Shown: in pieces, positions 7,460 through 45,120 of the stretch
Position numbering within the stretch: the stretch's first letter is position 1
Layout: every line of letters begins with the position of its first letter
IMG/VR virus record: IMGVR_UViG_3300008516_000114
Location: 1 to 64,000 of that record
Source of the DNA: a virus
Strand: one strand, 5' to 3'
Length of the DNA stretch: 64,000 nt
Program-made: the position numbers and the translations under genes
Notes under the pieces: model-generated
Told to the model about the DNA's origin: nothing
Seen by the model: only the letters and a program-made list of their open reading frames with translations
Databases searched by the model: none

Positions 7460-7478
7460 TATTTGAAGGGAGTTTAAT

Positions 7479-8785: not shown

Positions 8786-8791
8786 GAGATC

Positions 8792-13752: not shown

Positions 13753-13759
13753 AAACGTT

Positions 13760-15682
13760 ATGGATAAGATGAATACAGATAAAAGAAAAGTAGAGACAAG
13801 GCAGATAGTAGATACCCTGATTACTTATCATAAGCCTGAATATGCTGCTGACCATCTGGATATAAGTTTCAAGAAATTTGGTAAGAAATGTAAATTACTG
13901 GATATTCCGCTTGATATCGGCATTGAATATGATAAATCCTTAGCAGCAGTACGCGAGACTGTCAAGAGCTTTGAAATCATTACGAATATGATCACCTCTG
14001 CTATTCCGGATACACTGAGAGATAAATTCATATATGCCGAGAAATATTCAAAAGGGGATGATCTCGTACAAAGCATTACTTCTACCAAATCGGATTTTAT
14101 GATGGCTGGATTCCATGTGAAATCCAAAGATATCGGAGTAGAATCTTTTTGTAACGAAATTAATCGTACATTCAATATGGATAATATTATTCAGCAAGCA
14201 TGTGTGAAGGCTTCAGATATTTCAAATATCCCTTTTTATTATAAAACAGTAACTCCCAAAAGCAAAGATGTCGAAGATATAAAAATACTTGATCCTAAAT
14301 GGCTTAGTATTATACCGCTTTCAATGGTGAAAGACGGTAAGCCACAGAAAGCGGTGATCCTGCAAATCAGCGATGAATTCAAAAGAATTTACAGGCAAAA
14401 CATTCTTCTCTATAAAGATATAAAAATGATCAATGAGATGAAAAAAGCCATTCCGCCTAAATATTTAATGGCATTGAACAACAAAGGCGTAACCGCAAGG
14501 AGGGATTGCGTTGAATTATTAGAAGAAGATGGTGAATACGTCGAATTAATTAATTGGCGTGGCGAGAGAGATAGATTAGTTATGCCACAGATGACGGCAG
14601 TCTTTCCCGATATAAGATTAAGAATGCTCATACGTGATGGTGATTATTCGATATTTCATCACATAAAGCATTTAATTCACCAGGTGAAAGCAGGAAAAAC
14701 CAATACAACCCAAAGTGGTGGATTCGGGCTTGTTAGTGAGATTTTGAATCAGCGCTTAACAGATGAAAAAGCACAAGCATTGAAAGCAGTTTATAGTGAT
14801 ATTGATAAAGTAATGCTGGAAATCACCGATGATACAATAGAACATAAATTTAATTTTCCCGATCCCGAATTATTCGATTATAGAAAATACCTGGCAGTTG
14901 AACAGAGAATACTACGTTGGGGCGGGATTGCTCTTATATTGCTTGATGCAACAAGCAGCAATTATTCCGGTGGATATATATATCTCAAATCGCTTTATGC
15001 CGATGTGATGAAATGGCGTAATGCTATCAGGAGAACATTGGAAGATTTCTATTTGACAATAGCACCTGCAGCAGGTCGTGGTGGATTGAAAACCAAGATG
15101 TTAGACCCCAAAACCCGGCCTCATGTATTATTTGATAATACTATGATGAAAGAGCCAAAGCAGATACTTGATGAAATAAAATTTTTGTTAGATAAAGGTG
15201 GCGGTTCGTGGGAGACTATACATGAGATGTTTGGTATTCCACATTCGATAGAGATGGAACGCAAAAAACAGGAATGGCTTGATGTAAAAGCAGAGAAACA
15301 GTTTCTATATCCTATTTATGAGGGAAGCCAAGGATTATTGCAGGGTTATTATGTACCACCTTTTCAAGAAAAGCAGGAAAATCTACCCAAGCAGATTCCA
15401 GGTAAAAAACCCGCCGGATCACCTGGCAATCCTGAGAAGGATGGGCTTCAAACCGATAATACCAAACAACCGAGACAACCAAGACCGAGTGAAGCGACTT
15501 TGAAAGAGATTGCGGATATGGGATTGCAGGTTGCGGATTTCGGAATTGTGAAGAAAGTCGGCACAAAGTGGTATGTATATAGCCACGACGGTACGAAGAA
15601 ATTGAGCAAAGGCTATAAGACGAAGAAAGAGGCAGTTGAGAGACTGGCGGAGATTGAATATTTCAAAAATAAAGATAAATAA
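13760..15682 (+). CDS. Portal protein
   Basis: The frame opens at ATG 13730, but ATG 13760 follows the leader stop closely and gives a natural start (MDKMNTDKRKVETRQ). The 640-aa product has portal-like features: a helical N-terminal clip region, a long Arg/Lys-rich core (DKFIYAEKYSKGDDLVQSI, VPLSMVKDGK region), a wing-like WGGIALILLDATSSNYSGGYIYLKSL and a helical C-terminal crown (MFGIPHSIEMERKKQEWLDVKAE). A Pro-rich linker then leads to a small KWYVYSHDGTKKLSKGYKTKKEA domain at the end. It forms the DNA gate in the capsid vertex. The call rests on position after terminase, size and layout. Confidence 0.75.
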   Translation: MDKMNTDKRKVETRQIVDTLITYHKPEYAADHLDISFKKFGKKCKLLDIPLDIGIEYDKSLAAVRETVKSFEIITNMITSAIPDTLRDKFIYAEKYSKGDDLVQSITSTKSDFMMAGFHVKSKDIGVESFCNEINRTFNMDNIIQQACVKASDISNIPFYYKTVTPKSKDVEDIKILDPKWLSIIPLSMVKDGKPQKAVILQISDEFKRIYRQNILLYKDIKMINEMKKAIPPKYLMALNNKGVTARRDCVELLEEDGEYVELINWRGERDRLVMPQMTAVFPDIRLRMLIRDGDYSIFHHIKHLIHQVKAGKTNTTQSGGFGLVSEILNQRLTDEKAQALKAVYSDIDKVMLEITDDTIEHKFNFPDPELFDYRKYLAVEQRILRWGGIALILLDATSSNYSGGYIYLKSLYADVMKWRNAIRRTLEDFYLTIAPAAGRGGLKTKMLDPKTRPHVLFDNTMMKEPKQILDEIKFLLDKGGGSWETIHEMFGIPHSIEMERKKQEWLDVKAEKQFLYPIYEGSQGLLQGYYVPPFQEKQENLPKQIPGKKPAGSPGNPEKDGLQTDNTKQPRQPRPSEATLKEIADMGLQVADFGIVKKVGTKWYVYSHDGTKKLSKGYKTKKEAVERLAEIEYFKNKDK

Positions 15683-15703: not shown

Positions 15704-16435
15704 ATGTATGATAAAAGAATATTAATAATATCGCCATTCCGGAATGAAGAACATTCGGTTCCGCATTATCTTAAATCATTGGCGAATATCAGTTATCCAC
15801 AAAATTTGATCGATGTTTGCTGGTTTGAAAATGATTCGAGTGATGATACTTATAAATTATTATTTAATTATATACAACCCGGTGGACTCAGGGATTTTAA
15901 TTATTTCTCATTAGAGCATTTAACCATTATGGGCAAAATAGAAAAAAGCAAAACATTCACCTATTACAAGGATATTCCTTATGGTAAGAACAGAATTAAG
16001 CCCTGGCTGGTAATATGGAATGAATATTTCATACCGACAATATTGAAAAGCCGCTGTGATTATGTTTTAATCTGGTTTGCCGATTGCGTAGCACCACCGA
16101 ATGTAATCGAGGAATACTTAAAAGTTTACGAGCAATATCCGGATTGCGGTTGGGTAGGCGGTGAGATGTGGCGAAGGCATCCGAGAGAGAGAGAATGTAT
16201 ATCGCCCTGGCAATATGGAAATAAAGTTCCAAAAGAGATAACTAAAGTACCATTTGCATCATCGCATTGCTGGCTAAGTAAAAAAGAATATTTTGAGGAT
16301 GTTGAATTTCGATATCATAAAGCGGATATGCACATTTCGATTATCGAGCAATTCAAGGAAAAAGGGCTGTATGTATATTTCCAGCCGAGTGTAAAATTAA
16401 AGCATGTAAGTAATGATGGGAAGATATATAAATGA
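15704..16435 (+). CDS. Glycosyltransferase-like protein (GT-A fold)
   Basis: GGTGGTG at 15693-15699 precedes ATG 15704; the TTG at 15692 is less likely. The N-terminus ILIISPFRNEEHSVPHYLKSLANISYPQNLIDVCWFENDSSDDT is a GT-A nucleotide-sugar binding start, and WFADCVAPP is in the place of the DxD motif. C-terminal GGEMWRRHP and YFQPSVKLKHV fit the acceptor side. It is the first gene of the sugar island. The donor and acceptor are unknown. Confidence 0.8.
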   Translation: MYDKRILIISPFRNEEHSVPHYLKSLANISYPQNLIDVCWFENDSSDDTYKLLFNYIQPGGLRDFNYFSLEHLTIMGKIEKSKTFTYYKDIPYGKNRIKPWLVIWNEYFIPTILKSRCDYVLIWFADCVAPPNVIEEYLKVYEQYPDCGWVGGEMWRRHPRERECISPWQYGNKVPKEITKVPFASSHCWLSKKEYFEDVEFRYHKADMHISIIEQFKEKGLYVYFQPSVKLKHVSNDGKIYK

Positions 16436-16468
16436 AGAATGTAAAATGTAAAATGAGAGGGCAAATTG

Positions 16469-17230
16469 ATGATTAAGCAATTTATAATTTCCGATTCGGT
16501 TAAGTTTTTTGCAGATCGTATAGCGAGTAATTATCCTATAAAGTGCGTAAACGAGGACAATTATGATAAAAAAGCACCCTGTCTATTTATAGGTAATTAT
16601 CGTCAAAGTGATTTAAGAAGGATAAACGAACATGAGGGATTTGCGGTGGTATTGTGGTGTGGGATAGATGTGGAGAGAAAACATATAGTCAGGGGATTGA
16701 AACCGAGCGTTAAGCATATTGCAACCTCGCATTGGGCAAAGACAATTCTTTCTTCTTTGAATATTGATTACAGGTTTATCAATTATTGTACAGCATATTT
16801 GAACCGTCGAAGTTCTGAACCTCTGGGTGATAAGATATATTGCTATGCACCAAATGAAATATACGGAAAATCCTTAGCGGAAGATGTCGGGAGACAAGTT
16901 GATTATGAATTGATATTAACGATAAGTAAAACTCAATATTCGCCAGATCAGATAAATGAATTCTATAGACAATCTTTTATGGGTATAAGGCTCAGAGATA
17001 GAAGCGATGGATCAGCGACAACAGTGCAGGAAATGGCATTAATGGGAAGAAGGACTATCTGGAATGGCGATCAACCTGCTGCTATTCACTGGAAAGATAA
17101 GTCTGATATTATCAGATTAATCGGTGAAGAAGCCAAGAAAATCGGCACAATTCCAACAGAAGTTACAGAGATAACATATAATTATTTCAACATCAATAAC
17201 GATTGGTTGAATGAAGAATTTTACGAATAA
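16469..17230 (+). CDS. Glycosyltransferase-like protein (GT-B type)
   Basis: GAGAGG precedes ATG 16469. The protein has a Rossmann-like first part (PCLFIGNYRQSDLRRINEHEGFAVVLWCGID) and a second part with YELILTISK, YRQSFMGIRLRDRSDGSATTVQEMALMGRRTIWNGD, the donor-binding Glu region of GT-B enzymes. At 254 aa it is short for the class. Neighbours are an epimerase and other transferases. Confidence 0.7.
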   Translation: MIKQFIISDSVKFFADRIASNYPIKCVNEDNYDKKAPCLFIGNYRQSDLRRINEHEGFAVVLWCGIDVERKHIVRGLKPSVKHIATSHWAKTILSSLNIDYRFINYCTAYLNRRSSEPLGDKIYCYAPNEIYGKSLAEDVGRQVDYELILTISKTQYSPDQINEFYRQSFMGIRLRDRSDGSATTVQEMALMGRRTIWNGDQPAAIHWKDKSDIIRLIGEEAKKIGTIPTEVTEITYNYFNINNDWLNEEFYE

Positions 17231-17242
17231 AGAAAGAATAAT

Positions 17243-18181
17243 ATGAAGCAGAAAATTCTTGTAACCGGTGGATTGGGAACAATAGGATATGTTTTGGTAA
17301 GAGAATTAAAAAAGCGTGGTTACGATGTCTGGGTATGTGATTTAAAACATTCGTTTAATGAAAAGTATATACGATGTGATGTTGCTAATTACCGCCAACT
17401 CAGTAGAATTTTTGAACTGCATGAATTTGATTATGTTTATCACTTAGCTGCAGAATTCGGGAGATGGAACGGTGAGGAATATTATGATACACTTTGGCGT
17501 TCAAATGTCATTGGCACGAAAAATATAATTCGTATGCAGGAGCAATATGGATTTCGTCATATATTTTTCAGTAGTTCAGAAGTATATGGAGATTATAGCG
17601 GAATAATGTCTGAAGATGTTATGGATAAGTTTGAGATTAAACAACTCAATGATTATGCAATGACGAAATGGGTCGGTGAAATGCAAATTATGAATTCAAA
17701 AGAGCAATTCGGGGCGGAGAGTTTACGAGTGCGGTTATTTAATACTTATGGAGAGGGTGAATTTTATACTCCTTATAGGAATGTAATATGCAGGTTCATT
17801 TATCATGCTTTAAAAGACTTGCCCTATACCGTTTATCTTGGTCATCATCGCACATCTACTTATGTTACGGATACTGTCAGAACTCTTTCTAACATTATTG
17901 ATAATTTTAAGGCTGGCGAGGTTTATAATATTGGAGGAGGTCAATATCACAGTGTTAAGTATTTATCTGATTTGATTCTTAAATATCTTGGAAAAACGGA
18001 TAAGAAGATTAAGTATCTTGGAGGAGAAAAATTTACAACCAAAAATAAAAAGATTGATATTACAAAAGCAGAATGTGATCTTAATCATAGAAATCTTATC
18101 ACATTAGAGAAAGGCATCCCAAAAACAATCGAGTGGATGAAACTTATATATAAGGAGAATAGTTATGGAAAAAAATATTGA
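17243..18181 (+). CDS. NAD-dependent epimerase/dehydratase (extended SDR)
   Basis: The N-terminal TGGLGTIG is the NAD(P)-binding GxxGxxG motif, YVYHLAAEFGR, FFSSSEVYG and the catalytic YAMTK (Y-x3-K) follow, with RLFNTYGEGE and YNIGGG near the end. This is the extended SDR family that converts nucleotide sugars (for example UDP-galactose/UDP-glucose epimerases or 4,6-dehydratases). It would prepare the donor sugar for the transferases around it. It overlaps the next gene by 17 bases. Confidence 0.92.
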   Translation: MKQKILVTGGLGTIGYVLVRELKKRGYDVWVCDLKHSFNEKYIRCDVANYRQLSRIFELHEFDYVYHLAAEFGRWNGEEYYDTLWRSNVIGTKNIIRMQEQYGFRHIFFSSSEVYGDYSGIMSEDVMDKFEIKQLNDYAMTKWVGEMQIMNSKEQFGAESLRVRLFNTYGEGEFYTPYRNVICRFIYHALKDLPYTVYLGHHRTSTYVTDTVRTLSNIIDNFKAGEVYNIGGGQYHSVKYLSDLILKYLGKTDKKIKYLGGEKFTTKNKKIDITKAECDLNHRNLITLEKGIPKTIEWMKLIYKENSYGKKY

Positions 18182-18764
18182 AGCTTTTAATGGTGATTAT
18201 TATCTAGCTGAAAAAGTTATTCAAGTTGTCAATAAATATTGTATAAGTAATATAATAGAAACGGGGACACAATTTGGAAAGACTACTGAATTTTTTTGCA
18301 AGTTAGTGGCGAATGTATATTCGGTTGAGTTAAATGAAAATAATTTCAATAAGGCAAAAGAGAGATTACAAGGGTATAAAAATGTGAAATTGTATAACGA
18401 AAGTTCCGAAAAGTGTCTTGATTCTTTGATTTCAAATAATATTTTAGTTGGGAATACAATTTTTTATTTAGATGCACATGATAATTATCCTCCAGATAGG
18501 GGGACAGTTATTTTAGATGAACTACGACAGATTCTTCGTTTAGATAAAGCATTGGTTTTTATTCATGATTTTAAGGTTCCAAGAAAGACTTTTGGGTTTG
18601 GTTCGCATGCCCCGGGAGTTGCTTTGGATATAAATGTAATTTCTCCTATTCTTAACACTTCTGGCAAAGAAATACAGTACAAATATCCTGAAAAAACTGC
18701 GGGAAAGAATAGGGGGAGTGTTTTGATTAAAATTGGAGATTGGAAAAATGGATTTAATTCTTGA
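18165..18764 (+). CDS. Class I SAM-dependent methyltransferase-like protein
   Basis: The protein has an IIETGTQFGKTTEFF segment in the place of SAM motif I, VYSVELNENNFNKAKERL as motif II (acidic residue after the second strand) and TIFYLDAHDNYPPDRG as the strand 4 motif. This is the layout of small methyltransferases found in sugar-modification clusters. The start lies inside the epimerase gene's end with TAAGGAGAATAGTT before it. Its substrate is probably a sugar or hydroxyl group, which is inference. Confidence 0.7.
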   Translation: MEKNIEAFNGDYYLAEKVIQVVNKYCISNIIETGTQFGKTTEFFCKLVANVYSVELNENNFNKAKERLQGYKNVKLYNESSEKCLDSLISNNILVGNTIFYLDAHDNYPPDRGTVILDELRQILRLDKALVFIHDFKVPRKTFGFGSHAPGVALDINVISPILNTSGKEIQYKYPEKTAGKNRGSVLIKIGDWKNGFNS

Positions 18765-19914
18765 ACAACAAGCTATTATAAATAATACGAAAAGGATAAA
18801 AGAATTTCGGTTTGCGAATCCAAATGCTATTGAAATTGGACGATTTAAAATTGGTGTGTATCGAACACCAAAAAGTGAGATTAATGCTGTTAAAGATAGT
18901 TATCATTTTTGTATGGTTGGTGCTTCATATTCGTCAGATGGCTTAGCTAACTTTGATGATTGGTTAATTGCAGGATTAGAGCAAAGAGGGCATAGGGTTT
19001 CTCGCCTTATTGTGAATGCTAAAATTGTACATAGATATGGTGGCATTAGGGGATTACAAGAAATCCTCCGAGTCCAGTTAAAACGTATTTATAATAATCT
19101 ACAGCCTGATATTTTCTGGGTTACTCACGGAGGTGGGCTTTGGAGTAAGGAAATGGTTGAAGATGCAAATGACGCTGGTTTGATTACCATGTTTTACGGA
19201 GTTGATGATATTGTACTCTTTGATTCTATTTCCAGACATTTAACCCCATCATTTGATCATGTTTTCACATTCCCATTTGTGAAAAGCGTTTATAAGGAAC
19301 AATTGAATATTGATACAATAGATTTCTATTTTTGTGCTAATCCTTTTGTAGTTGGGGGGCAAGAACCGAATTTAATAGAAAAAAAGAAATACGAATCTGA
19401 TATTATTCTTACAGGAAATGTACATGGAATAAGAAAATCCCCTCGTTTGATGTATCTTCTGCAATTTTATTTAGCAGGATTGGATATTAAATATTTTGGA
19501 TGCGATAATTTGAATAAGATTCCTCAAGCATCTAAGATTTGGCAGGGATATTTTCGTTCAAGAGAAGAGGAAAATAGAGCTTATAGATCATCAAAAATAT
19601 CCTTCAGCCTAACACAGCAAATTAATTGTTATGGCAAACGTTCTCAGAGTATAACATCGAAAATGCTTGATGGCGGTGCGGCAGGATGCTTGATATTGAC
19701 AAATGATTTTCCTGATTTAGCAACAGGATTTAACTCAGATGAAGTCGTGGTTTATTCCTCCGTAGAGGATGCTGTTGAGAAAGCAAAATATTATTTAGAT
19801 CATCCAAAAGAAAGAATAGAAATTGCTCAGAGAGGGCAAAAACGTTGTTTGGAAGATCATACAATAACGCAGAGGGTTAAGACAATAGAATCTTTATTAC
19901 AGAAAGGAAAATGA
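18748..19914 (+). CDS. Glycosyltransferase, CgeB-like / GT-B
   Basis: ATG 18748 (TTGGAG upstream) is preferred to TTG 18733. The first half has a Rossmann-like segment (FCMVGASYSSDGLANFDDWLIAGLEQRGH, DIFWVTHGGG, MFYGVDDIVLFDS) and the second half the GT-B donor region (DIILTGNVHGIR, YRSSKISFSLTQQI, MLDGGAAGCLILTNDFPDL, then VEKAKYYLDHPKERIEIAQRGQKR). This resembles the CgeB-like glycosyltransferases. The product overlaps the next gene by four bases. Confidence 0.85.
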   Translation: MDLILEQQAIINNTKRIKEFRFANPNAIEIGRFKIGVYRTPKSEINAVKDSYHFCMVGASYSSDGLANFDDWLIAGLEQRGHRVSRLIVNAKIVHRYGGIRGLQEILRVQLKRIYNNLQPDIFWVTHGGGLWSKEMVEDANDAGLITMFYGVDDIVLFDSISRHLTPSFDHVFTFPFVKSVYKEQLNIDTIDFYFCANPFVVGGQEPNLIEKKKYESDIILTGNVHGIRKSPRLMYLLQFYLAGLDIKYFGCDNLNKIPQASKIWQGYFRSREEENRAYRSSKISFSLTQQINCYGKRSQSITSKMLDGGAAGCLILTNDFPDLATGFNSDEVVVYSSVEDAVEKAKYYLDHPKERIEIAQRGQKRCLEDHTITQRVKTIESLLQKGK

Positions 19915-21014
19915 TGAATACTTATGATTTTTATTTGAATTCCAAGCCTTTTGAAATTACGATAGTAGATGAAATTATAGATAATGCCGCAGGAACGTAT
20001 CCTTGCTATTATACGGTTAAAGATAATCAACTAATGATCTCCGGTAGTGTATATGCTTTAATAAAAGAGTTGGGGAATTTTATACAAAATAACAGAGTGC
20101 GTATAGGTAGATATGCAACTTCTTATCAGACACACGACACAAGAATAATGAGAATTCAACCATTCGAGAAAATTAATTGCGTGTGCGGAAAATTGATTAA
20201 AACAAATAATTTTACATCATCTAATAATTTAGATTTGAATGATTTCATAGATAAAGAAGCAGAGTTATTGACAGAGCATGTTAATTCAATTGAAAGACGA
20301 TATCCTGATGCTATCCATATTGCTGAAGTGGGTGGTAAGGACAGTCAAATAATATTACTGATTCCGAAGTTAAGTAAGAACTGGTATGTGTTTTCAGCGT
20401 TTCCCAATTATCCATTGGTTAAACAATTTGTTGAATTAAATAATATTGATATAAATAAATTTTATACACATTTAGGAGATGATGAATTTGAGGATAATAA
20501 ATTCATAGAAGAAAAAATCGTTGCTTTAGATGGTTTACAGCAATTACTACATCTTAGATGGGGGAAAAGCCACAGAAAGTTAGCAATCCAAGAATTTGGT
20601 GGTAAAAAGGTTATATTCTGGGATGGCGACAGTGGTGGCAATCTAAATTCTCCGCTAAATATTAACCGGTTGAAAAAAATCCAAAGGACAGAAGTAGAGT
20701 TTTTCCGGTTTTTCTGGACATGCTCACCATTACATCAGGGGGCAACTCATCAATATTATAAACAACTGGGATTGACCCGATTGGATATTTATAGTTATCC
20801 GCAATTATGGAAAGATGTTTTTATGCAATATAATCCGATTAATATTTTGAAAAAAGATATTAGAAAACAGCTTGGTGATAAAGTATTCGGGAAATCAGTT
20901 AAGTGGATAGATGAAAATCCTGCTCCTCCAGCATGGAAAGCCCAATTGAGATATGATGTTAGAAAGATATATACAGATTGCATAAAAAGGGAATTATTGA
21001 AGACAATACGATGA
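19911..21014 (+). CDS. Asparagine-synthase-like PP-loop protein
   Basis: The N-terminal 100 residues resemble the degenerate substrate-binding half seen before AsnB-type ATPase domains (VYALIKELGNFIQ, GRYATSYQTHDTRIMRIQPFEKINCVCGK). VGGKDSQIILL at residues 140-150 is a PP-loop, the site that adenylates a carboxylate; it replaces the usual SGGxDS. GDSGGN at residues 245 onward fits the ATP-site region. Such enzymes form amides by AMP activation, as in asparagine synthetase or lasso-peptide cyclases. The position in a glycosyltransferase cluster suggests amidation of a sugar acid. Stop and start overlap by four bases with both neighbours. Confidence 0.7.
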   Translation: MMNTYDFYLNSKPFEITIVDEIIDNAAGTYPCYYTVKDNQLMISGSVYALIKELGNFIQNNRVRIGRYATSYQTHDTRIMRIQPFEKINCVCGKLIKTNNFTSSNNLDLNDFIDKEAELLTEHVNSIERRYPDAIHIAEVGGKDSQIILLIPKLSKNWYVFSAFPNYPLVKQFVELNNIDINKFYTHLGDDEFEDNKFIEEKIVALDGLQQLLHLRWGKSHRKLAIQEFGGKKVIFWDGDSGGNLNSPLNINRLKKIQRTEVEFFRFFWTCSPLHQGATHQYYKQLGLTRLDIYSYPQLWKDVFMQYNPINILKKDIRKQLGDKVFGKSVKWIDENPAPPAWKAQLRYDVRKIYTDCIKRELLKTIR

Positions 21015-21157
21015 AGATAATTTTAAAGATAAGTCTTCAGGAAGTAATTCATGCAACTGATAAGAAGGAATATAAGAGAAAACGTGAGGAGTTATGGCTG
21101 AAATTAAGGAAGATGGGATTAAAGCCGTTGATTGAGGATGAGTATGAGATTAAATGA
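21011..21157 (+). CDS. 48-aa basic ORF
   Basis: The ATG overlaps the previous stop (ATGA). The product is short, Lys/Arg-rich and helical (LQEVIHATDKKEYKRKREELWLKLRKMGLKPL). No family is recognised. Another 17-codon ORF follows in overlap (21154-21207), then the methylase gene. Coupled translation is possible. Confidence 0.45.
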   Translation: MKIILKISLQEVIHATDKKEYKRKREELWLKLRKMGLKPLIEDEYEIK

Positions 21158-21178
21158 AAATAAAGAGCATATTAGAAA

Positions 21179-21730
21179 ATGAAGAAATATCAGATTATAT
21201 ATGCTGATCCGCCTTGGAATTATAGCGTAATGGGCGATGTACACGGTGGAAGAGGGCAAAATAAGCAATACGAGACTATGAGATATACAGAAATTTGCGA
21301 ACTGCCTATACAAGATATTGCGGATGATAACTGTGCCATCTTTCTATGGGCAACGTATCCAATGCTTCCAGAAGCAATGTACTTGTTACGTGCGTGGGGA
21401 TTTCGGTATAAAACAGTTGCATTCACTTGGGTAAAATTAAATAGAAAAGCACTATCTCCGTTTTTCGGAATGGGACAATGGACACGGACAAACGCAGAAA
21501 TTGTTTTGCTCGGAACAAAAGGGAAACCAAAGAGGGAAAGCAAGGCAGTTTCACAAATTATCTTCGGAGTTATTGAGGAACACAGCAAGAAACCGGATGA
21601 GGTGAGAGGTAAGATAGTTGAGTTAATGGGGGATATTCCACGGGTAGAATTATTTGCCAGAAAAAGATATGGAGGTTGGGATGCATGGGGAAATGAAGTT
21701 AAGAGCGATATTGTTTTTGAGGATATATAA
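21179..21730 (+). CDS. MT-A70 family adenine-N6 DNA methyltransferase
   Basis: The 183-aa protein starts with YQIIYADPPWNY, which carries the catalytic DPPW, then CAIFLWATYPMLPEAMYLLRAWGFRYKT, TRTNAEIVLLGTKGKP and RVELFARKRYGGWDAWGNE, the MT-A70 signature. It transfers a methyl group to adenine N6 in DNA (or rarely RNA). In phages it protects DNA from host restriction; no restriction enzyme is visible. There is no clear ribosome site, so coupling to the short upstream ORF is likely. Confidence 0.93.
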   Translation: MKKYQIIYADPPWNYSVMGDVHGGRGQNKQYETMRYTEICELPIQDIADDNCAIFLWATYPMLPEAMYLLRAWGFRYKTVAFTWVKLNRKALSPFFGMGQWTRTNAEIVLLGTKGKPKRESKAVSQIIFGVIEEHSKKPDEVRGKIVELMGDIPRVELFARKRYGGWDAWGNEVKSDIVFEDI

Positions 21731-21762
21731 CATGTCAACAGATAGAAAAATAAGGAAAGAAT

Positions 21763-22956
21763 ATGGGTAAAGAAATAAAACAGATTATTAAGAAACTTGG
21801 CATGAATAAGAATATAGGATCGAGCATTAACAAAGGCTGGGCTTATCACGGATTGCCTTTTGATGATATTGATCTGCCAATACATCGGAAGGCATTAGAT
21901 AAAAGGGTGAAATTAATTCTTTCTCATTACGATATTATAGAAAAGAGTGGTATCGATCTGGGATGTAATATAGGTGGGTTTGTGTTTTCCTGTCAATTAA
22001 AAGGAGCAAAAATGATTGGATATGACTATGATTCCCAATCAATTGAATTTGCTAAAAAGATAGAAAAAATTAAAAAGACAGGTGCAATATTCTATAATAA
22101 ATCAATAACAGAGGATATATTAAATGATTTTGATAAAATAGATTTTTGTTTATGGCTCAGTCAATTCATGTGGTTGGTTAAAAGCATTGGTAAGGAAAGA
22201 TCATTATCATTTATGTATGAATTATCCAAGAAAATAAATGATGTCATGTTTTTTGAAACTTCTTTTCAAGATTCGATGGCTGGTAAAGAAATGATCAAAA
22301 TGGGGATAAAAGATAAAGATTCTGTGAGGAATTTATTAATAAATAATACGTGCTTTACTAAAATAAAATATATTGGGCATTTTGAAGATGGTTGGTCAAA
22401 ACGTCCTGTATTCAAATGCTCAAATCCGAAATTAGAATGGAATGGTGTAACCGCTAAAGTAGAAAGAATATCAAAAAAAATAGTTAAGAAAAAAATTGGA
22501 GAAGGCGGACTTGAGGGATTCAAATTTTTAGATTGTAAGGATTATGAAATTAAATCATTATTTACATTATGCTCAAAACATTTCCCTATGCTTTTGTCTA
22601 TAAGCCAAAACTCTTTAGATATGGAGTATTGTGGTATTCCTTTGACAAAAGACAATATGCCTGTTGATTATGAAGACCAGATAAAGGCAATTTTAGTGGA
22701 ATTAAGGCAAGCCAAGATTGTACACAGGGATATCAGACCAGACAATTTATTAGTAAAAGATAATATAATAAAACTAATTGATTTTGGATGGGCTATTGAA
22801 AAAGGCAAAGAAAATGAGAAATATCCTGGTGGATTGGGTTGGAAATTTAAAGCCAAAGGAGAATTTGATGATGAATACAGTTTAAGAAAGTCAATTGATT
22901 TTATACAGACCCATGCTACGCCTACGGCTACGCAGGGCAGGAAGGATAAAAAATGA
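21763..22956 (+). CDS. Methyltransferase-kinase fusion, WbdD-like
   Basis: The N-terminal half (residues 25-225) has SAM motif I GIDLGCNIGGF and the acidic YDYDSQSIEFAKK motif, making it a class I methyltransferase. The C-terminal half (230-375) has kinase hallmarks: a Gly-rich KIGEGGLEG segment, VHRDIRPDN catalytic loop (320-328) and IDFGWAI (DFG at 340-342). This order matches WbdD, which caps O-antigen chains with a methylphosphate. The expected coiled-coil tail of WbdD is missing and the C-terminus is THATPTATQG, encoded by a dispersed repeat (22909-22941). A heptose-kinase-like or protein kinase role is an alternative. Confidence 0.8.
   Translation: MGKEIKQIIKKLGMNKNIGSSINKGWAYHGLPFDDIDLPIHRKALDKRVKLILSHYDIIEKSGIDLGCNIGGFVFSCQLKGAKMIGYDYDSQSIEFAKKIEKIKKTGAIFYNKSITEDILNDFDKIDFCLWLSQFMWLVKSIGKERSLSFMYELSKKINDVMFFETSFQDSMAGKEMIKMGIKDKDSVRNLLINNTCFTKIKYIGHFEDGWSKRPVFKCSNPKLEWNGVTAKVERISKKIVKKKIGEGGLEGFKFLDCKDYEIKSLFTLCSKHFPMLLSISQNSLDMEYCGIPLTKDNMPVDYEDQIKAILVELRQAKIVHRDIRPDNLLVKDNIIKLIDFGWAIEKGKENEKYPGGLGWKFKAKGEFDDEYSLRKSIDFIQTHATPTATQGRKDKK
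22909..22941. repeat. GC-rich dispersed repeat inside a gene's 3' end
   Basis: ACCCATGCTACGCCTACGG then CTACGCAGGGCAGGA matches copies at 7387-7459 and 9758-9797 at almost every position. It is read in the same frame as in the 9276 gene (TATQG) at the C-terminus of the methyltransferase-kinase. Confidence 0.85.
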
Positions 22957-23159
22957 TTGAAAAATCAACAAACCGAAATATTAGCTCCAGCGAATTGTTA
23001 GATGCACTACAGATTGCTTGTAATGATATTGAATCACCCAAAAATGCACATCATAATCGTCGTGGATTATTAAAAGGAGTAGCATTTTCGGATGGATATT
23101 TAACGGGAAAAAGAGCAGGACTTTTAGAAGCTATAGAAATTATTAAAAAGTGCATCTAA
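22953..23159 (+). CDS. Hypothetical protein, 68 aa
   Basis: The ATG overlaps the stop of the methyltransferase-kinase gene (ATGA at 22953). The helical product has SSSELLDALQIACNDI, NRRGLLKGVAFSDGYLTGKRAGLLEAIEII. No family is recognised, but the regular helices make a real protein likely. Confidence 0.55.
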   Translation: MIEKSTNRNISSSELLDALQIACNDIESPKNAHHNRRGLLKGVAFSDGYLTGKRAGLLEAIEIIKKCI

Positions 23160-23193
23160 CATTGTCAATATATGGAAAATGAAGAAATAAAAC

Positions 23194-23964
23194 ATGAAAA
23201 AATTAACAATATTGATATTAACGCATAATCGGTTAGAATATACACGATTTTGTCTTGAGGCAGTGAAAAGATATACGGATTTTTCTTTGATTAAGGATGT
23301 AGTTATTGGCGATGCAGAAAGTATAGATGGTACGGAGGAATTGGTAAAAACATTTGATTTTGGAAAAACGGTAAAAACGGTATATAAAATACATGCTGGA
23401 AATATAGGATTGAATTTAGGTACAGGGGCGAAATATGCAAAAGGCGATTATATAATTATTATAGGTAGTGATATTTTAGTAGCACCGGATTATACCGAGA
23501 AAGCATTAACCACTATTCAATTAGCCCGAAAGCACGGAATTAATATTGTTGCTTACGATGATGCTGCATACAGATTGAATTTTTACGGTGAGCCAATATT
23601 ACTTGATAATGGTATCACATTGAAAAGATCACGAAATGTAGGTGGATTAGTTATCATTCCGAGAGAGAAGATGTTATTGAGAGGTGGACGTGGTCATTAT
23701 CTTGGTGATGCTAAAACGCTTTATAATGGTTGGCAAGGCTGGTACAGGGCATTTCCCAGAGAACTGGCAATGATGTTTCCAAGATTAGGATGTTTTGATA
23801 TGTTGCGAATAGTAACAAATCCGAAAGGTTTTGAATATATTGAATACCGGAAAAAAGAACCACTAGTGCAGGAATTGATTAAAGCCGATCCGATCATGCT
23901 TAATAAGAAATATATAAGAAACAGATGGGGCAGAGGTCATTCACTTGATAGGAAAAGGGATTAG
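23194..23964 (+). CDS. Glycosyltransferase family 2
   Basis: The start MKKLTILILTHNRLEYTRFCLEAVKRY is a classic GT2 nucleotide-sugar binding start, followed by VVIGDAESIDGTEE, HAGNIGLNLGTGAKYAKGDYIIIIGSD (DxD-like SD) and RNVGGLVIIPREKM. At 256 aa it is a single GT-A domain. Its C-terminal codons overlap the long frame of the next gene. Acceptor unknown. Confidence 0.88.
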   Translation: MKKLTILILTHNRLEYTRFCLEAVKRYTDFSLIKDVVIGDAESIDGTEELVKTFDFGKTVKTVYKIHAGNIGLNLGTGAKYAKGDYIIIIGSDILVAPDYTEKALTTIQLARKHGINIVAYDDAAYRLNFYGEPILLDNGITLKRSRNVGGLVIIPREKMLLRGGRGHYLGDAKTLYNGWQGWYRAFPRELAMMFPRLGCFDMLRIVTNPKGFEYIEYRKKEPLVQELIKADPIMLNKKYIRNRWGRGHSLDRKRD

Positions 23965-23989
23965 GAATATAAACAGAGAGAGGACTATC

Positions 23990-24757
23990 TTGATAAAAAT
24001 TATTTTTAGTAATCAAGTTGACGAAGACAAGATAATTATTCCACTATGGTATCACTGGTACACAAATATTTTTAAAGCTGATAAATTACTTGTATTAGGT
24101 GCTTCTGTCAAAGGTACTACCCATACAGACTGGGTTAGGAATTTTTATAAAGATAAAACTAATGTTATTTATTCGGAGAAAGAATATAACTATTGGCATT
24201 TTCCTAGCGTTTGGGAGGATCAAGTATCCATTGTTGAATCTCATATACCGTCAAATGAAAATTATTATACGTTGATAGCAGATTGTGATGAGTTTTTTGA
24301 ACCAGTGGAAGATTGTGTTTTAGAACATAGTAGATATATTGCATATAAACAGTTAAGGTTGGGAGCGTTGGAACAGTTATCTTTAGGAAATATTATGGGT
24401 GCTGATATTTTTACTATACCTAATATAAAAGATGGGTTAATAGTTTATAAAAGTACGCCTATACGATGTGGATTAGTAAATGATATAAAAAATTTGTTTG
24501 TTGTACCAGGAGTAGCAAGAGGATCGAAATTTTCAGGATTGTATTTCTTTCATCTGCATTTTATGGGGTTGAATTGGTATGTGAAAAGATTTAAAAATAT
24601 GAGATACCCAACAGGAAGATCAAGTTATCACTGGAAGATTTATACGAAGAATATTCAAGAACGATTGTTAAAAGCAAAATATGACGAATTTCTGAATGAT
24701 ATCGATAGAAGCCAGAATATTGAATTGATAAAGAGATTTAAAGGATATTTTGAATAA
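23990..24757 (+). CDS. Glycosyltransferase-like protein (GT-A)
   Basis: The frame opens at 23945, but a TTG at 23990 behind AGAGAGAGG gives the natural start MIKIIFSNQVDEDKI and is preferred. ADCDEFFEP is a DxD-type metal site, and YFFHLHFMGLNWYVKR fits the acceptor end of GT2/GT92-like enzymes. The gene lies 25 bases after its neighbour. Function as a sugar transferase is inferred from motif and place. Confidence 0.75.
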   Translation: MIKIIFSNQVDEDKIIIPLWYHWYTNIFKADKLLVLGASVKGTTHTDWVRNFYKDKTNVIYSEKEYNYWHFPSVWEDQVSIVESHIPSNENYYTLIADCDEFFEPVEDCVLEHSRYIAYKQLRLGALEQLSLGNIMGADIFTIPNIKDGLIVYKSTPIRCGLVNDIKNLFVVPGVARGSKFSGLYFFHLHFMGLNWYVKRFKNMRYPTGRSSYHWKIYTKNIQERLLKAKYDEFLNDIDRSQNIELIKRFKGYFE

Positions 24758-24868
24758 TAGAGAGAAGATTTAATCACTAATTATCCATCAGTTGCCCGTC
24801 AGTTGCCGGATTCTCAAACCGGATGTCTTTGACACACGAATTGCACTAATTTTTAAAGAGGAGAAGAA

Positions 24869-25810
24869 ATGAAAGAGAAAAAATTACTAATCATTACATG
24901 TGTCTATAATCGCTTGCCATTGGTAAAACAATGCGTCGAAGCGGTAATACAAAATACGAATGTTTTTGAAATGTATACGAAAGGTATAAGTTGCACTTAT
25001 GCTTTAGTATATAACCATCCACCATATCTTGGTATTAAGCAATATTTAGAAGACAATTCGGGTTATCGGGGAGGTCCAGATATTAGTTGTTGTATGGATG
25101 TAAGATTATTAGACCCAGGTCGGAATTTGGGATGTCACAGGGGATTTAATTATGCTCTGGGTTATTATATATATCGCTATAAACCTGATTATATAGTGAA
25201 ATTGGATGATGATACGATTGTGCCGAAGAACTGGAATATCCCGATGATGGAAGTATTAGAGCAGGATAAAAAACTGGCATATTTATCTTCAGTAGATAAG
25301 GATGCTAAACAGGGCAAAGAGTTCTTTATTAAGAAAATCGGCAAGTATAATATAGAGATACCGAAGATTGGATGTGTTGGATTTTCCTGTGTAATGTTTC
25401 CTATCAGGTCGCTGATAGAAATAGGGACTTTGCAAACGGGTGGATTAGTGCGTATGGATGGCGATAAGATCGAGGATTCTAATCTATATGGTGGTGAAGA
25501 GATGAATTATATGGTTCGAGTAAAAGAACATCATCAATATGGTGCATATATCCAGGGGGTTGTTGCTCAACATCTGAAGAATGAAGACCGTGATATTGAT
25601 TATGTATTATGGAAATACTGGTATGGTTTTAAGGGAGCAACCAAGAAGGATTTAGTTGAATTTAAAAAAGACAAAAAAGAATTAATAAGAGGATATGAAC
25701 ACATGCTAACTATTGATAATAAATGGTGGCGTGAAACGGCTATAAAACGGTTAAAGGAATTGAAAAAGTCATTGTTTAGTAGATTATTAAGAATTAAGAA
25801 GAGACAATGA
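24869..25810 (+). CDS. Glycosyltransferase family 2-like
   Basis: AAAGAGGAGAAG precedes ATG 24869. LLIITCVYNRLPLVKQCVEAVIQNT, LDPGRNLGCHRGFNYAL, IVKLDDDTIVPKNW (DDD motif) and GCVGFSCVMFPIR are GT-A features. The C-terminal region is basic and helical. An intergenic stretch of about 110 bases before it is the largest gap within the island. Confidence 0.87.
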   Translation: MKEKKLLIITCVYNRLPLVKQCVEAVIQNTNVFEMYTKGISCTYALVYNHPPYLGIKQYLEDNSGYRGGPDISCCMDVRLLDPGRNLGCHRGFNYALGYYIYRYKPDYIVKLDDDTIVPKNWNIPMMEVLEQDKKLAYLSSVDKDAKQGKEFFIKKIGKYNIEIPKIGCVGFSCVMFPIRSLIEIGTLQTGGLVRMDGDKIEDSNLYGGEEMNYMVRVKEHHQYGAYIQGVVAQHLKNEDRDIDYVLWKYWYGFKGATKKDLVEFKKDKKELIRGYEHMLTIDNKWWRETAIKRLKELKKSLFSRLLRIKKRQ

Positions 25811-25842
25811 CATATAAATATTAATTGAGTGCAATGATTCCA

Positions 25843-25877
25843 TGAAAAACGGTTACTTTTCGTGAAAATTGGTTACT
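25843..25877. repeat. Two TGAAAA-GGTTACT direct repeats
   Basis: Copies at 25843-25857 and 25863-25877 agree at 13 of 15 bases, 20 bases apart, in the gap between two glycosyltransferase genes. The arrangement recalls multiple short terminal repeats at insertion sequence ends, but no transposase is nearby. Confidence 0.4.
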
Positions 25878-25899
25878 CAAATTATTGGAGGACAAATAG

Positions 25900-26640
25900 A
25901 TGGAAAAAGTATCAATTATAATAGTAACGTACAACCGGTTAGATATGTTGAAAAAATGTCTTGCTGGAATAAGAAAAAATACTAACTATCCTTATGAAAT
26001 GATATTAATTGATAATGGCAGTGACAGAGAGACTGCTGATTATATCGGATTACAGGGATGGATGGATGATGTTTGGGGAGTATACCGATTTGATAATAAC
26101 GCAGGTTTTGCAAGGGGATTTAGTAAAGGACTTGCAATGACAGATTGTAAGTATAGAATAATACTTAATAGCGATACAGTTCCTTATAAGGGCTGGCTTG
26201 ACAGATTGGTAAGATTTTTTGATATAAATCCAGATGTGGGAATAGTATTGCCATATACAAATTATGCTTGTAACCCTGAGATACGTTGTGATGAACAAGT
26301 CATATTTGATACTCAAACAAAATTATTAAAAGGCGATGTACCGGCAATATGCTGGATGATATCGAGAAAATGCTATAATGCAGTTTGTAATGTAATTGAA
26401 AAATTGGGTGGTGGCAATTGTTTTTTCCACAGTGATTTTGAATATGGTTGGGCAGAAGATATATTGACTTCACAAATAATAAGGAAATTGGGATTTGATA
26501 GATATGTAATAGGCAAGAGTTTCATTTATCATTTTGGAATGGCAACGCAAGCAATCCTAAAGGATACAGGTGGTTTCAGAAAAAAAAATATGGTGAAATT
26601 GAAAAAATATCTTGAAGAATTAAAGGAATTGAATTTATGA
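25900..26640 (+). CDS. Glycosyltransferase family 2
   Basis: ATTGGAGGAC precedes ATG 25900. VSIIIVTYNRLDMLKKCLAGIRKNT, EMILIDNGSDRETADYI, NNAGFARGFSKGLAM, RIILNSDTVPYKGWLDRLVRFF and CWMISRKCY are textbook GT2 motifs. It is a single GT-A domain. The stop overlaps the next gene's start by four bases. Confidence 0.92.
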   Translation: MEKVSIIIVTYNRLDMLKKCLAGIRKNTNYPYEMILIDNGSDRETADYIGLQGWMDDVWGVYRFDNNAGFARGFSKGLAMTDCKYRIILNSDTVPYKGWLDRLVRFFDINPDVGIVLPYTNYACNPEIRCDEQVIFDTQTKLLKGDVPAICWMISRKCYNAVCNVIEKLGGGNCFFHSDFEYGWAEDILTSQIIRKLGFDRYVIGKSFIYHFGMATQAILKDTGGFRKKNMVKLKKYLEELKELNL

Positions 26641-27836
26641 AAGTATTGCACTTTGTAGAAGGCGATAATGCCTGCACATATTACCGAACAACACAGCCGT
26701 GTGAGTTTATGAAATGCAGTGGTCATATTCATATAATTATACAAATTTATTGCAAATTATCGGAAAAAGATAGAGATAAGATATATAAAGTAATTCCCGA
26801 TATGGACATAATATTTTTCAATAGGTTTTTAGATTGGCAGGATTTAATAGAATTTGCAAATAAAAAGAATGTAATTACAATATATGGCACAGATGATTAT
26901 TTTGAATTTGGAGATAAAAATCCATTTGGTGCAATTGCAAAGTATAATCATTATGATCTCAGATGCCAGAATGCGGCACAATCTTGCGATGGAGTGATTG
27001 TATCTACAAAGGCTCTACAGGAGATTTTTTATAGATATAATTCAAATACCTATGTTGTACAGAACATGATAGATTATTCAATGAAGCAATGGCATAAGAA
27101 AATAAGAGGAAATGGGAAAGCGAGCAGTAGAGCAGGGGAGAGAATTGTAATAGGATATTATGGAAGCCCGACGCATTATTATGATCTTAAAGAGGCAATG
27201 CCAGCAATTACACAATTAATGCAGGAGTATCCGAATCTGGAATTTCATTATGGGGTTATACCAACAGAGGGTGTGATTTACGATTTGAATAAAGAAAGAG
27301 GTCGTTTTAAAAAAGAAGTTAATCCAAATAACTTCATGGCAATTAAATACAGGAATTTGAGTAAGGATATGCCTAACGACAGGGTTAAGTACTTAACCTA
27401 CTCATCGATAGATGAATTTGGTAAAGTATATGCAGATTTTGATATTGCTATTGCTCCACTTGCGGATACTGCAATGAATAGACATAAATCGAATCTAAAA
27501 GTTATAGAACCCGGTGGATATAATTTACCAGTAGTTTGCTCTGCTATTCGTCCATTCACAGAGACGATAAAACATGGCGTTGATGGATTTTTGGTAAACA
27601 CTCCCGATGAATGGTATGATTATCTCAAGCAATTAATTGAGAGTAAAGAATTGCGTAATACAATAGGAAAAGCATTAGGCGAAAAAGTTCTATTGAATTA
27701 TGATATTAGAAATCGCTGGCATGATTGGTTTTATACTATATTGACAATTGCAAGAATATCCGGTAAGCCATTTCGGAATATCACGGGCAAGAAATGGAGT
27801 AAAGCAAGAATATTACGCAAAAATCTATTCGGTTAG
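26637..27836 (+). CDS. Glycosyltransferase, GT-B family 4-like
   Basis: The 399-aa protein has KVLHFVEGDNACTYYRTTQP at the start, DGVIVSTKALQEIFYRY, IVIGYYGSPTHYYDLKEAMPAI at the linker to the second domain, and FDIAIAPLADTAMNRHKSNLKVIEPGGYNLPVVCSAIRPFTETIKHGVDGFLV, the GT4 donor-site and ExxxxxG region. It uses a nucleotide sugar and adds it to a glycan. It ends the sugar island; a 59-aa HTH-like ORF follows by three bases. Confidence 0.92.
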   Translation: MKVLHFVEGDNACTYYRTTQPCEFMKCSGHIHIIIQIYCKLSEKDRDKIYKVIPDMDIIFFNRFLDWQDLIEFANKKNVITIYGTDDYFEFGDKNPFGAIAKYNHYDLRCQNAAQSCDGVIVSTKALQEIFYRYNSNTYVVQNMIDYSMKQWHKKIRGNGKASSRAGERIVIGYYGSPTHYYDLKEAMPAITQLMQEYPNLEFHYGVIPTEGVIYDLNKERGRFKKEVNPNNFMAIKYRNLSKDMPNDRVKYLTYSSIDEFGKVYADFDIAIAPLADTAMNRHKSNLKVIEPGGYNLPVVCSAIRPFTETIKHGVDGFLVNTPDEWYDYLKQLIESKELRNTIGKALGEKVLLNYDIRNRWHDWFYTILTIARISGKPFRNITGKKWSKARILRKNLFG

Positions 27837-27839: not shown

Positions 27840-28019
27840 ATGGGTTTTCGTAAGAGTAAAGAATTATCAAGGCGCAATAAAGATATATTGGAAGAATATA
27901 TTCGGTATTGCAAGGAAGGGAAATTGCAAGATAAAGAAATTATAAAGAGACTGGCTAAGAAATTTTATCTTGCAGAGAGGACTATTGAGAATATTGTGTC
28001 ATTGAGGAATGATTTGTGA
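27840..28019 (+). CDS. Small HTH-like protein, 59 aa
   Basis: The start has no clear ribosome site but is three bases after the previous stop. The basic product has RRNKDILEEYIRYCKEGKLQDKEIIKRLAKKFYLAERTIENIVS, whose helix-turn-helix arrangement (KEIIKRLAKKFYLAERTIENI) suggests DNA binding. It stands directly before a terminator and a repeat-rich regulatory gap ahead of the head genes, where it could act as a regulator. This role is inference. Confidence 0.55.
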   Translation: MGFRKSKELSRRNKDILEEYIRYCKEGKLQDKEIIKRLAKKFYLAERTIENIVSLRNDL

Positions 28020-28073: not shown

Positions 28074-28097
28074 CCCCGATTATATCGGGTTTTTTTA
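28074..28097 (+). terminator. Rho-independent terminator after the sugar island
   Basis: CCCGAT (28075-28080), TAT, ATCGGG (28084-28089) form a six-bp stem with a three-base loop, followed by eight T residues (28090-28097). It would end transcription of the sugar-island operon before the head-gene operon. Confidence 0.85.
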
Positions 28098-28124: not shown

Positions 28125-28164
28125 TATATTGTATTTTCCCCTTTAAGGGGAAAGTATATTGTAT
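28125..28164. promoter_or_regulatory. Direct repeats flanking a palindrome upstream of the head operon
   Basis: TATATTGTAT occurs at 28125-28134 and at 28155-28164, and between them lies the palindrome TTTCCCCTT-T-AAGGGGAAA (28135-28153). The gap 28098-28217 should hold the promoter of the protease-capsid operon, and this symmetry looks like an operator. I see no convincing -35/-10 pair. Confidence 0.45.
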
Positions 28165-28217
28165 AAAATGTTATATTTTTGTTTATTATGCGTCAGAATG
28201 AGTGAGAAAGGCGAAAT

Positions 28218-29789
28218 ATGGAACAATCGATAACATTCAAAGCAGATATTGCTAATTTCCAATTTATTCAAGAACCACTTAAAGTTTCTGTTGGAGAAAA
28301 GGAGTATGTTTTTGAACCAGACGTTAGTAAATCATTTTTCCATTTTGATTTGCTTTCTTCTTATCCTACTTTTAATTCAAATAAATTAACATTTACGCTT
28401 CCGATATTAGCAAAGGCGTTTGCAACTGCTATGTATAATCCATTGGATATTGAACATATATTGGAAGGCAATCCTGGTATTTTCGATCCTGAAAAAGATG
28501 CTAATCGCATTATCGGGGCAATGATATTATCTTATTTACCAGGCATTGAAAAGTATGGCGACGATGTACCACTAGTACCCGATGCTCCTATACCAATGCG
28601 GATCGTTGGCGTTGCATGGAAGCGAATTGCGGATGCCCAGGATTTATTGCAGGGAATGGCAAATGGTGTGAAATGGGGTACATCAATGGAGGTTATCAGG
28701 AATTCCAGTGAGGATATGTATGTCAATCCTGAAACCAATGAATTCTATGAATTGGGCAGTGTACCAGAAGACTTAAAAGACAAAGTTGTATTGGCTGTTG
28801 GTGGTAAAGGCGATAAGGAAAAAACCACTGTTAATTTCTGGGGTGGCGGATTCACATTATCACAAGCAGATAGGACGGCAAATATTCTTTCTTTGAACGC
28901 AGCAATGGCAAACAAGGGAGAGATGACAATGAAGATAGATAAATCAAAAACAGACAAATCGAATATAGAAAAATTATTTGCTGATACTAATAAAATTATA
29001 ATAATCACCGATGGTTCTGCAAGTGGTACTATAATGCAAATAGGTGAAGAGCAAGTTGCTTTTGAAAGTCTTTGGTTAAGTTGCTCTAAAGATAATAGAG
29101 ACGATAGAGTATATATGGATTTTTCAGTAGTGAAAGAAAAAATCGGTGATTTTGTTGTTTACCAACGATATGAATTGAAGAAAAAAGAACTCTTTAAAGC
29201 GGAAGGAGATGAGGACATGAATATTATACAACAAGCAAAGAAAGAGTTGAAAGAAGAGGGATACAAGAGTGCTTCCGAGATAGAGAAAGAGATTTCTACG
29301 GTTAAGGAAGGATTTAAGGATTTTGTATCTCCTGACAAGCAAAAGGAATTGGTAGATCAGGCAGTTAAGGACAAGGCAGTGGAGATCGAGAAAGCAGTTA
29401 AGGAAAAATACGATATTCTTTTTGCACGTTTAGGTGAAATGGAAAAAGAAGGTATTAAGGTAACGGTTTCGAGAAAAGAAAAGATAATTTCTTTTAAAAC
29501 AGATGAAGCAGGAAATAAAGAATTCAAGGAATATTTGGATTCTATTAAAGCATCAATTGCGGATATGGAAAAAGTATTGAAAGAGAAGAATGTTGAATTG
29601 AACGATAATTTAAAAGCCAAAATATCGGCATTTAATGGAGTTGATGACCTGGAATTTAAGGCATTAATAGATGGTATCAGCATGATTGCATCGAAAGCCA
29701 GTGGAGACGATAGAGAAACATTCGTTTTTTCTCCTACTGGGGGGGACATTGATAAAAATAAAGACCCTTTTGCCGGAATGCACAAATGA
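28218..29789 (+). CDS. Prohead protease fused to scaffold-like domain
   Basis: The N-terminal domain (residues 1-230) has AFATAMYNPLDIEHI (candidate His80) and GVKWGTSMEVIRNS (candidate Ser156), in the arrangement of HK97-type or Mu-I-like prohead proteases. Residues 255-305 form a small beta domain with DGSASGT, like the separate protein at 47251. Residues 335-510 are a long coiled-coil (EGYKSASEIEKEISTVKEG..., KEYLDSIKASIADMEKVLKEKN) typical of scaffolds. The capsid gene lies two genes downstream. Strong internal ribosome sites at 28914-28920 (ATG 28923) and 29203-29208 (ATG 29217) would give shorter products from the same frame. Confidence 0.7.
   Translation: MEQSITFKADIANFQFIQEPLKVSVGEKEYVFEPDVSKSFFHFDLLSSYPTFNSNKLTFTLPILAKAFATAMYNPLDIEHILEGNPGIFDPEKDANRIIGAMILSYLPGIEKYGDDVPLVPDAPIPMRIVGVAWKRIADAQDLLQGMANGVKWGTSMEVIRNSSEDMYVNPETNEFYELGSVPEDLKDKVVLAVGGKGDKEKTTVNFWGGGFTLSQADRTANILSLNAAMANKGEMTMKIDKSKTDKSNIEKLFADTNKIIIITDGSASGTIMQIGEEQVAFESLWLSCSKDNRDDRVYMDFSVVKEKIGDFVVYQRYELKKKELFKAEGDEDMNIIQQAKKELKEEGYKSASEIEKEISTVKEGFKDFVSPDKQKELVDQAVKDKAVEIEKAVKEKYDILFARLGEMEKEGIKVTVSRKEKIISFKTDEAGNKEFKEYLDSIKASIADMEKVLKEKNVELNDNLKAKISAFNGVDDLEFKALIDGISMIASKASGDDRETFVFSPTGGDIDKNKDPFAGMHK
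29217..29789 (+). CDS. Possible nested scaffold protein from internal start
   Basis: AAGGAG (29203-29208) lies eight bases before an in-frame ATG at 29217 within the protease gene. Translation from it would give a 190-aa coiled-coil protein (MNIIQQAKKELKEEGYK...), as in the lambda C/Nu3 arrangement where the scaffold is the C-terminal part of the protease made independently. The evidence is the ribosome site and the domain boundary; there is no direct proof. Confidence 0.4.
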   Translation: MNIIQQAKKELKEEGYKSASEIEKEISTVKEGFKDFVSPDKQKELVDQAVKDKAVEIEKAVKEKYDILFARLGEMEKEGIKVTVSRKEKIISFKTDEAGNKEFKEYLDSIKASIADMEKVLKEKNVELNDNLKAKISAFNGVDDLEFKALIDGISMIASKASGDDRETFVFSPTGGDIDKNKDPFAGMHK

Positions 29790-39018: not shown

Positions 39019-39020
39019 TG

Positions 39021-45119: not shown

Positions 45120-45120
45120 A

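Follow-up and report, generated by a model that had tools for sequence, protein, structure and literature searches.

Candidate glycan-assembly island among the probable head genes of a tailed phage

Sugar cassettes in phage head modules are already known. In cluster J mycobacteriophages 8-10 genes, among them those for several glycosyltransferases (GTs), for methyltransferases and for a Ser/Thr kinase, separate the capsid and connector genes (PMC3706429). The mycobacteriophages Che8, Corndog and Myrna are reported to glycosylate capsid and tail-tube proteins with GTs of their own (Freeman 2023, cited in PMC12363180 and PMC12619734). The island described here, at positions 15704-27836 of IMG/VR virus record IMGVR_UViG_3300008516_000114, is of a known kind because these two precedents exist. 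It is larger, occupies another slot and belongs to an uncultured and otherwise uncharacterised phage. The record is 89,683 bp long and its bases 1-64000 are referred to below as the window. The island consists of about 13 tightly coupled plus-strand genes, 12 kb in all, between a probable portal gene and a probable protease gene. With a probability of roughly 0.6 it is a glycan-assembly cassette that is expressed together with the head genes and whose product is built on virion proteins, most likely those of the head; from the genes we infer the target, the order of the steps, the late timing and the benefit.

The cluster J phages Omega, Thibault and LittleE have GTs, S-adenosylmethionine (SAM) methyltransferases and a small Ser/Thr kinase, in 5-6 kb, inserted among the head genes; the island combines the same enzyme types among probable head genes. 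The cluster J slot lies between the major capsid and head-tail adaptor genes, whereas the island sits ahead of the probable capsid gene, with the portal candidate on one side and the protease candidate on the other. In the Thibault record the GTs, the kinase and the methyltransferase are found between capsid and adaptor, and portal and protease adjoin. The kinase of Thibault adjoins a separate methyltransferase gene while the window phage has a fusion, no epimerase or MT-A70 methylase is annotated in cluster J, and the phages are otherwise unrelated. The action of phage GTs on virion proteins was shown experimentally for Che8, Corndog and Myrna. In chlorovirus PBCV-1 the capsid protein bears a methylated glycan produced by virus-encoded GTs and methyltransferases (A064R, A061L; PMC9614988). 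PBCV-1 is a eukaryotic virus with an N-linked glycan, and its likeness to the island is by description of function.

Gene content, layout and flanks of the island

The original prediction, made from the sequence without database searches, listed about seven GTs, an epimerase, methyltransferases, a PP-loop amide-forming-like protein, a WbdD-like fusion and a DNA methylase. Domain searches of each protein gave sugar enzymes for most of the genes, with weak matches or none for 16466-17230, 18165-18764, 19911-21014 and 23945-24757. Six GTs are certain by Pfam and two weaker candidates are probable at best. The six comprise four GT2 enzymes with PF00535, at 15704-16435 (E 1e-8, also PF03452 E 8e-8), 23194-23964 (E 1e-13), 24869-25810 (E 1e-6) and 25900-26640 (E 6.5e-22), a GT-B enzyme of the Glyco_trans_1_2 type at 18733-19914 (PF13524 E 1.5e-22) and a GT4-like GT-B enzyme at 26637-27836 (PF13692/PF00534; PHROG 7162 E 2e-35), which is the last sugar gene of the island. 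A probable GT-A enzyme at 23945-24757 has a sub-threshold match to Glyco_tranf_2_4 (E 0.19) and a DCDEFF motif seen by eye. The product of 16466-17230 is, from its position and its look by eye, possibly the C-terminal half of a GT-B-type enzyme; it gave no family match and no meaningful match in the PDB. The GT2 domains detected across the record are confined to the island and a single tail-region gene.

The predicted epimerase was recovered at 17243-18181 as a nucleoside diphosphate-sugar epimerase/4,6-dehydratase of the short-chain dehydrogenase/reductase type (PF01370 E 4e-40); the best NCBIfam match is dTDP-glucose 4,6-dehydratase, far under the cut-off. The DNA methylase is likewise borne out, as an MT-A70 N6-adenine methyltransferase (21179-21730; PF05063 E 1e-28, PHROG 359 E 4e-79) with at most 59% identity to many phage orphan methylases. 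As for the other methyltransferases, the one in the fusion is supported by Pfam, and the SAM methyltransferase-like product of 18165-18764 by weak, sub-threshold scores (PHROG 22502 E 0.0065, PDB 1vbf E 8e-4). The PP-loop, asparagine-synthetase (AsnB)-like protein (19911-21014) has a VGGKDS motif seen by eye. It has no Pfam or PDB match, its AlphaFold2 model has a predicted local distance difference test score (pLDDT) of 35, and the amide-forming function is unconfirmed.

WbdD, the chain terminator of Escherichia coli O9a, phosphorylates and then methylates the end of the O-polysaccharide, and its C-terminal coiled-coil region recruits the mannosyltransferase to the membrane (PMC3482155). The fusion at 21763-22956 (Pfam methyltransferase; Pkinase E 1e-7) has the same order of domains, an N-terminal methyltransferase followed by a eukaryote-like kinase. 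WbdD is the best PDB match of its first 228 residues (E 3e-4), with an alignment that spans residues 46-223, nearly the whole methyltransferase domain, and the kinase half keeps the catalytic motifs HRDIRPDN (catalytic-loop Asp and Asn) and LIDFG (DFG). The predicted likeness to WbdD is therefore upheld, and the phage protein may work like the catalytic unit of WbdD. It stops at residue 397, about 55 amino acids past the DFG motif, which gives a protein of about 400 amino acids compared with 708 in WbdD, without the C-terminal coiled coil and without a known tie to an ABC-exported O-antigen. The kinase half also has a weak likeness to the gp12 kinase of Thibault (E 3.5e-5).

The first island gene follows the portal stop codon after 21 bp and all genes are co-directional through 27836. 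Several pairs overlap and most gaps are below 40 bp; small open frames lie in three of the larger ones (21011-21154, 22953-23159 and 27840-28019). This coupling supports the single transcription unit that had been proposed and, since it extends from the portal stop to the terminator, makes expression with the head genes probable. The terminator that was expected after the island is found at 28075-28096 as the hairpin CCCGATTATATCGGG followed by seven T (minimum free energy (MFE) -8.2 kcal/mol, folding z -2.5). The site is intergenic and has the longest unbroken T run among the sites listed; terminator-like sites as a class number 10 in the region with 8.5 expected by chance, and so are not above chance. 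A strong hairpin or palindrome at 28125-28165 (plus strand; MFE -18.6 kcal/mol, z -5.5), the core of which occurs once in the window, lies between the terminator and the next head gene and is flanked by a TATATTGTAT direct repeat. It is possibly a regulatory element, such as a late operator, or a second terminator. A recent foreign origin of the island was considered on grounds of composition and rejected, because codon usage and GC content are the same as in the other genes of the phage; the island does not look like a recent arrival.

The gene order was read as terminase-portal-island-protease-decoration-capsid, with the flanking genes on the plus strand. The probable portal protein (13730-15682, 650 amino acids) was recognised by gene order, size and a C-terminal domain of about 45 amino acids, the probable prohead protease-scaffold fusion (28218-29789) by gene order and the motifs DIEHI and GTSMEV seen by eye, and the probable major capsid protein (30291-31361) by gene order only. 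Searches of Pfam, PHROGs and the PDB with the terminase, portal and protease candidates gave no match, nor did searches of Pfam and PHROGs with the decoration and capsid candidates; the capsid candidate has no match in any library, and the AlphaFold2 model of the portal candidate has a pLDDT of 35. The 45-residue domain occurs in four other loci. It ends a Phage_portal_3 protein (portal family E 1e-78) in L005; in L002 a Peptidase_S78 protease, encoded immediately after a Phage_portal gene, starts with it; in L003 it makes up a small gene behind an SU10-like portal; and in L006 it comes shortly before a terminase gene. In the last of these, a 5-kb IMG/VR contig, a GT10 fucosyltransferase and an NAD epimerase directly precede the domain (181-1808), then comes the terminase gene, and this locus is another sugar insertion in a packaging module. 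The portal and protease identities are plausible from gene order, motifs and the portal-associated domain, and the island likely lies within the head module. The claim that it splits this module stands to that extent, with flanks that no library matched.

Besides a tape measure protein (40015-43962; PHROG 4211 E 3e-71), the record encodes, as read from translations, a helicase of the DnaB type, a beta clamp and two recombinases, one a large serine and the other a tyrosine recombinase. These genes mark it as a tailed phage, which probably has a long tail and may be temperate. Searches found no close relative for the terminase candidate in IMG/VR, GTDB genomes or GenBank phages, or for the portal and capsid candidates in IMG/VR or GenBank phages, and the three have no relatives in any annotated phage searched; the sole IMG/VR matches of the portal candidate are to its C-terminal domain. 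Single-query searches of IMG/VR with the DnaB protein, the methyltransferase-kinase and the last GT found nothing. The tape measure protein has about 25% identity to those of the SPbeta-like Bacillus phages (SPbeta), LC76P1 and PMBT24. In SPbeta and LC76P1 the portal gene adjoins the next head gene; in PMBT24 small genes totalling about 0.9 kb come between the two. An SPbeta-like ancestry was rejected, as hhalign and phmmer show no homology to the head proteins of these three phages, which are therefore unusable as an empty-site comparison. No relative with an empty portal-protease site was found in the searches of IMG/VR, GTDB and GenBank phages.

Relatives of the last glycosyltransferase

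The GT4-like protein (26637-27836) has a relative in Podovirus sp. ctQWt234 (MW202801.1; E 2.5e-28). The cassette of this phage, annotated as Fe-S oxidoreductase, GT, PhyH, methyltransferase, NodB-like and GT, lies between the capsid gene and the downstream structural genes and holds relatives of two island GTs, the GT4-like one and the GT2 enzyme at 25900-26640 (E 9e-11).

An alignment-based scan of IMG/VR with the GT4-like protein gave 52 viral loci. Judged by neighbouring genes, the replication block of T4-like phages accounts for 43 of these and virion modules for 8, and 1 belongs to neither group; near-copies make up many of the 43, and the counts are not independent. The family thus occurs outside virion loci as well. 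Six of the eight virion-module loci (L023, L025, L026, L027, L028 and L047), from podovirus-like genomes, have the relative after the capsid gene, directly before the head-tail adaptor gene, alone in L023 and L025 and at the end of a multi-gene cassette in the other four. The cassette of L047, for example, consists of cytidylyltransferase, C-methyltransferase, cupin, aminotransferase, TOD1-type GT, UDP-sugar dehydrogenase and GT4. Although the capsid (E 7e-117) and adaptor (E 2e-36) proteins of L023 and L027 are related, the interval between the two genes is 1.9 kb in one and 4.2 kb in the other, which indicates that the slot takes cassettes of differing size.

The podovirus and these six loci share with the window phage a sugar cassette whose last GT is related to that of the island, placed in the virion module there and probably also in the window phage. 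They differ in the slot, which follows the capsid gene, in size (1-10 genes) and in their capsid and portal families. The window GT4 is likewise the last GT ahead of the next head gene, but in a different slot. A tentative and on balance doubtful extension is that virion glycosylation in phages has a general capsid-adjacent slot, not named before, of which the GT4 family is the marker, and which in unrelated tailed phages is filled by the GT alone or by 1-10 variable sugar genes that it ends. The window phage would then be the most elaborate version here, with a chain of up to eight sugars and a methyl-phosphate cap. To our knowledge a methyl-phosphate-capped glycan has been found on no virion.

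Product of the island

In the proposed pathway, soluble GTs would assemble an oligosaccharide straight onto virion proteins in the cytoplasm, either before the particle is put together or while this happens, from nucleotide sugars of the host that the epimerase adjusts. Capping of the glycan with methyl and/or (methyl)phosphate would fall to the methyltransferases and the WbdD-like methyltransferase-kinase. The acceptor of the last GT may be the protein or the first sugar, since in other phages relatives of this GT stand alone between capsid and adaptor. The finished glycan would shield the particle or tune adhesion.

A glycan built on proteins in the cytoplasm needs no flippase, polymerase or initiating transferase, whereas an exported surface polymer does, unless those of the host are borrowed. 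The island proteins have no convincing transmembrane segment, and a hydropathy scan of the open reading frames of the whole record showed no flippase-, polymerase-, exporter- or GtrA/GtrB-like polytopic membrane protein. The initiating transferase family PF02397 had no match in the record in a search whose positive control matched, and no WecA-type (PF00953) polytopic protein was seen in the hydropathy scan, the PF00953 model itself not having been searched. Since neither membrane-glycan machinery nor a thymidylate-synthase-type gene was detected in the 89.7-kb record, virion proteins are favoured over the host surface or DNA, and the coupling with the head genes would suit a role at the assembly stage. 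The same target is supported by a second sugar locus. It encodes a GT2-methyltransferase fusion (53896-55182, plus strand; PF00535 E 8.5e-11, Methyltransf_11 E 8e-7) and overlaps by 22 bp a collagen-like gene of the virion region (55161-56582), the product of which has 82 G-X-Y triplets, 19 with Thr at Y. The fusion possibly serves as a dedicated glycosylation enzyme for this collagen-like tail protein.

The original prediction allowed for a glycan on either virion proteins or the host surface. Remodelling of a glycan on the host surface (O-antigen, capsule or wall polymer), for instance to exclude other phages or change the serotype, with the WbdD-like enzyme capping and ending host chains, is unlikely but has several points in its favour. 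Capping of the host O-polysaccharide is the known role of WbdD (PMC3482155), serotype conversion by phages is well known, cyanophage S-H68 has a large sugar cluster a few genes past a baseplate gene, and the two recombinases make lysogeny possible. Host lipid carriers and exporters could also be borrowed, which would make up for the membrane proteins and the PF02397 enzyme not seen in the record. The WbdD-like protein, however, ends at the kinase, without the mannosyltransferase-recruiting region, and the cassette sits inside the run of head genes. The evidence thus points, indirectly, to the virion.

It is rather improbable that the island is a mixed set of accessory genes, gained independently in a permissive gap of the head genes and with no single shared product. 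The MT-A70 methylase, which is unrelated to sugars and resembles ordinary phage orphan methylases, the small unrelated frames between the sugar genes and the strong differences in cassette content between phages with the same slot would all fit such a set. Most of the thirteen genes nevertheless suit one glycan pathway, and the codon usage, being that of the phage, speaks against recent random gain. The least probable explanation, and a very unlikely one, is that the GTs place sugars on a modified base of the phage DNA. Viral GTs that hypermodify DNA are reported (Pyle 2024, cited in PMC12619734) and the operon does hold a DNA methylase, but no thymidylate-synthase-like gene (PF00303) was found in the record, with a positive control that matched in 9 genomes, and Tet_JBP (PF12851) gave no match there in a search run without positive control.

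Several points weigh against a virion glycan as the product. The identities of the two flanks are deduced rather than matched, the 43 T4-like loci place most GT4 relatives outside virion modules, and the window GT4 is on a long branch of the tree without supported placement. WbdD itself acts on a polyprenol-linked O-antigen. The DNA methylase in the operon suggests that the cassette is not one pure pathway.

Other features of the record and implications

Carbohydrate-binding-type domains were seen in three virion-region proteins, 33328-33999, 56610-59840 and 47480-52258 (Laminin_G_3, E 3e-23; weak CBM_4_9; weak GLEYA/PA14). The tail module at 43977-45879 contains a metallophosphoesterase-like gene followed, 1 bp on, by a LAGLIDADG_2 homing endonuclease gene. 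Two families of dispersed repeats are found at gene ends. A G+C-rich repeat of 37 nt (D5, core CCCATGCTWCGCCTACGGCTACGCAGGGCAGG) is located at gene 3' ends at 7386-7461, 9755-9791 and 22908-22944 and is read through as the peptide PTATQG in two genes; its long pattern had no match in the genome or viral contig collections. An A+T-rich repeat of AATTNTNAATT-like units is located at or just after gene ends at 2140-2178, 8786-8824, 12689-12727, 32111-32149 and 39015-39053, with one copy at the split of a UvrD-like helicase reading frame (1283-2155 / 2898-3710). The minus-strand open reading frame 62622-63479 contains many copies of a 24-bp tandem repeat encoding SSVVAWEN-like octapeptides.

If the product of the island is on the virion, unrelated phage lineages have repeatedly placed a glycan-assembly line in their head operons, and a WbdD-type cap is suggested outside lipopolysaccharide synthesis. 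A cassette among the head genes, or a relative of the GT4 that immediately precedes the adaptor gene, would then be a sequence signature that predicts glycosylated virions in metagenomes, and a capsid glycan could be tied, in a testable way, to shielding, adhesion or host range.

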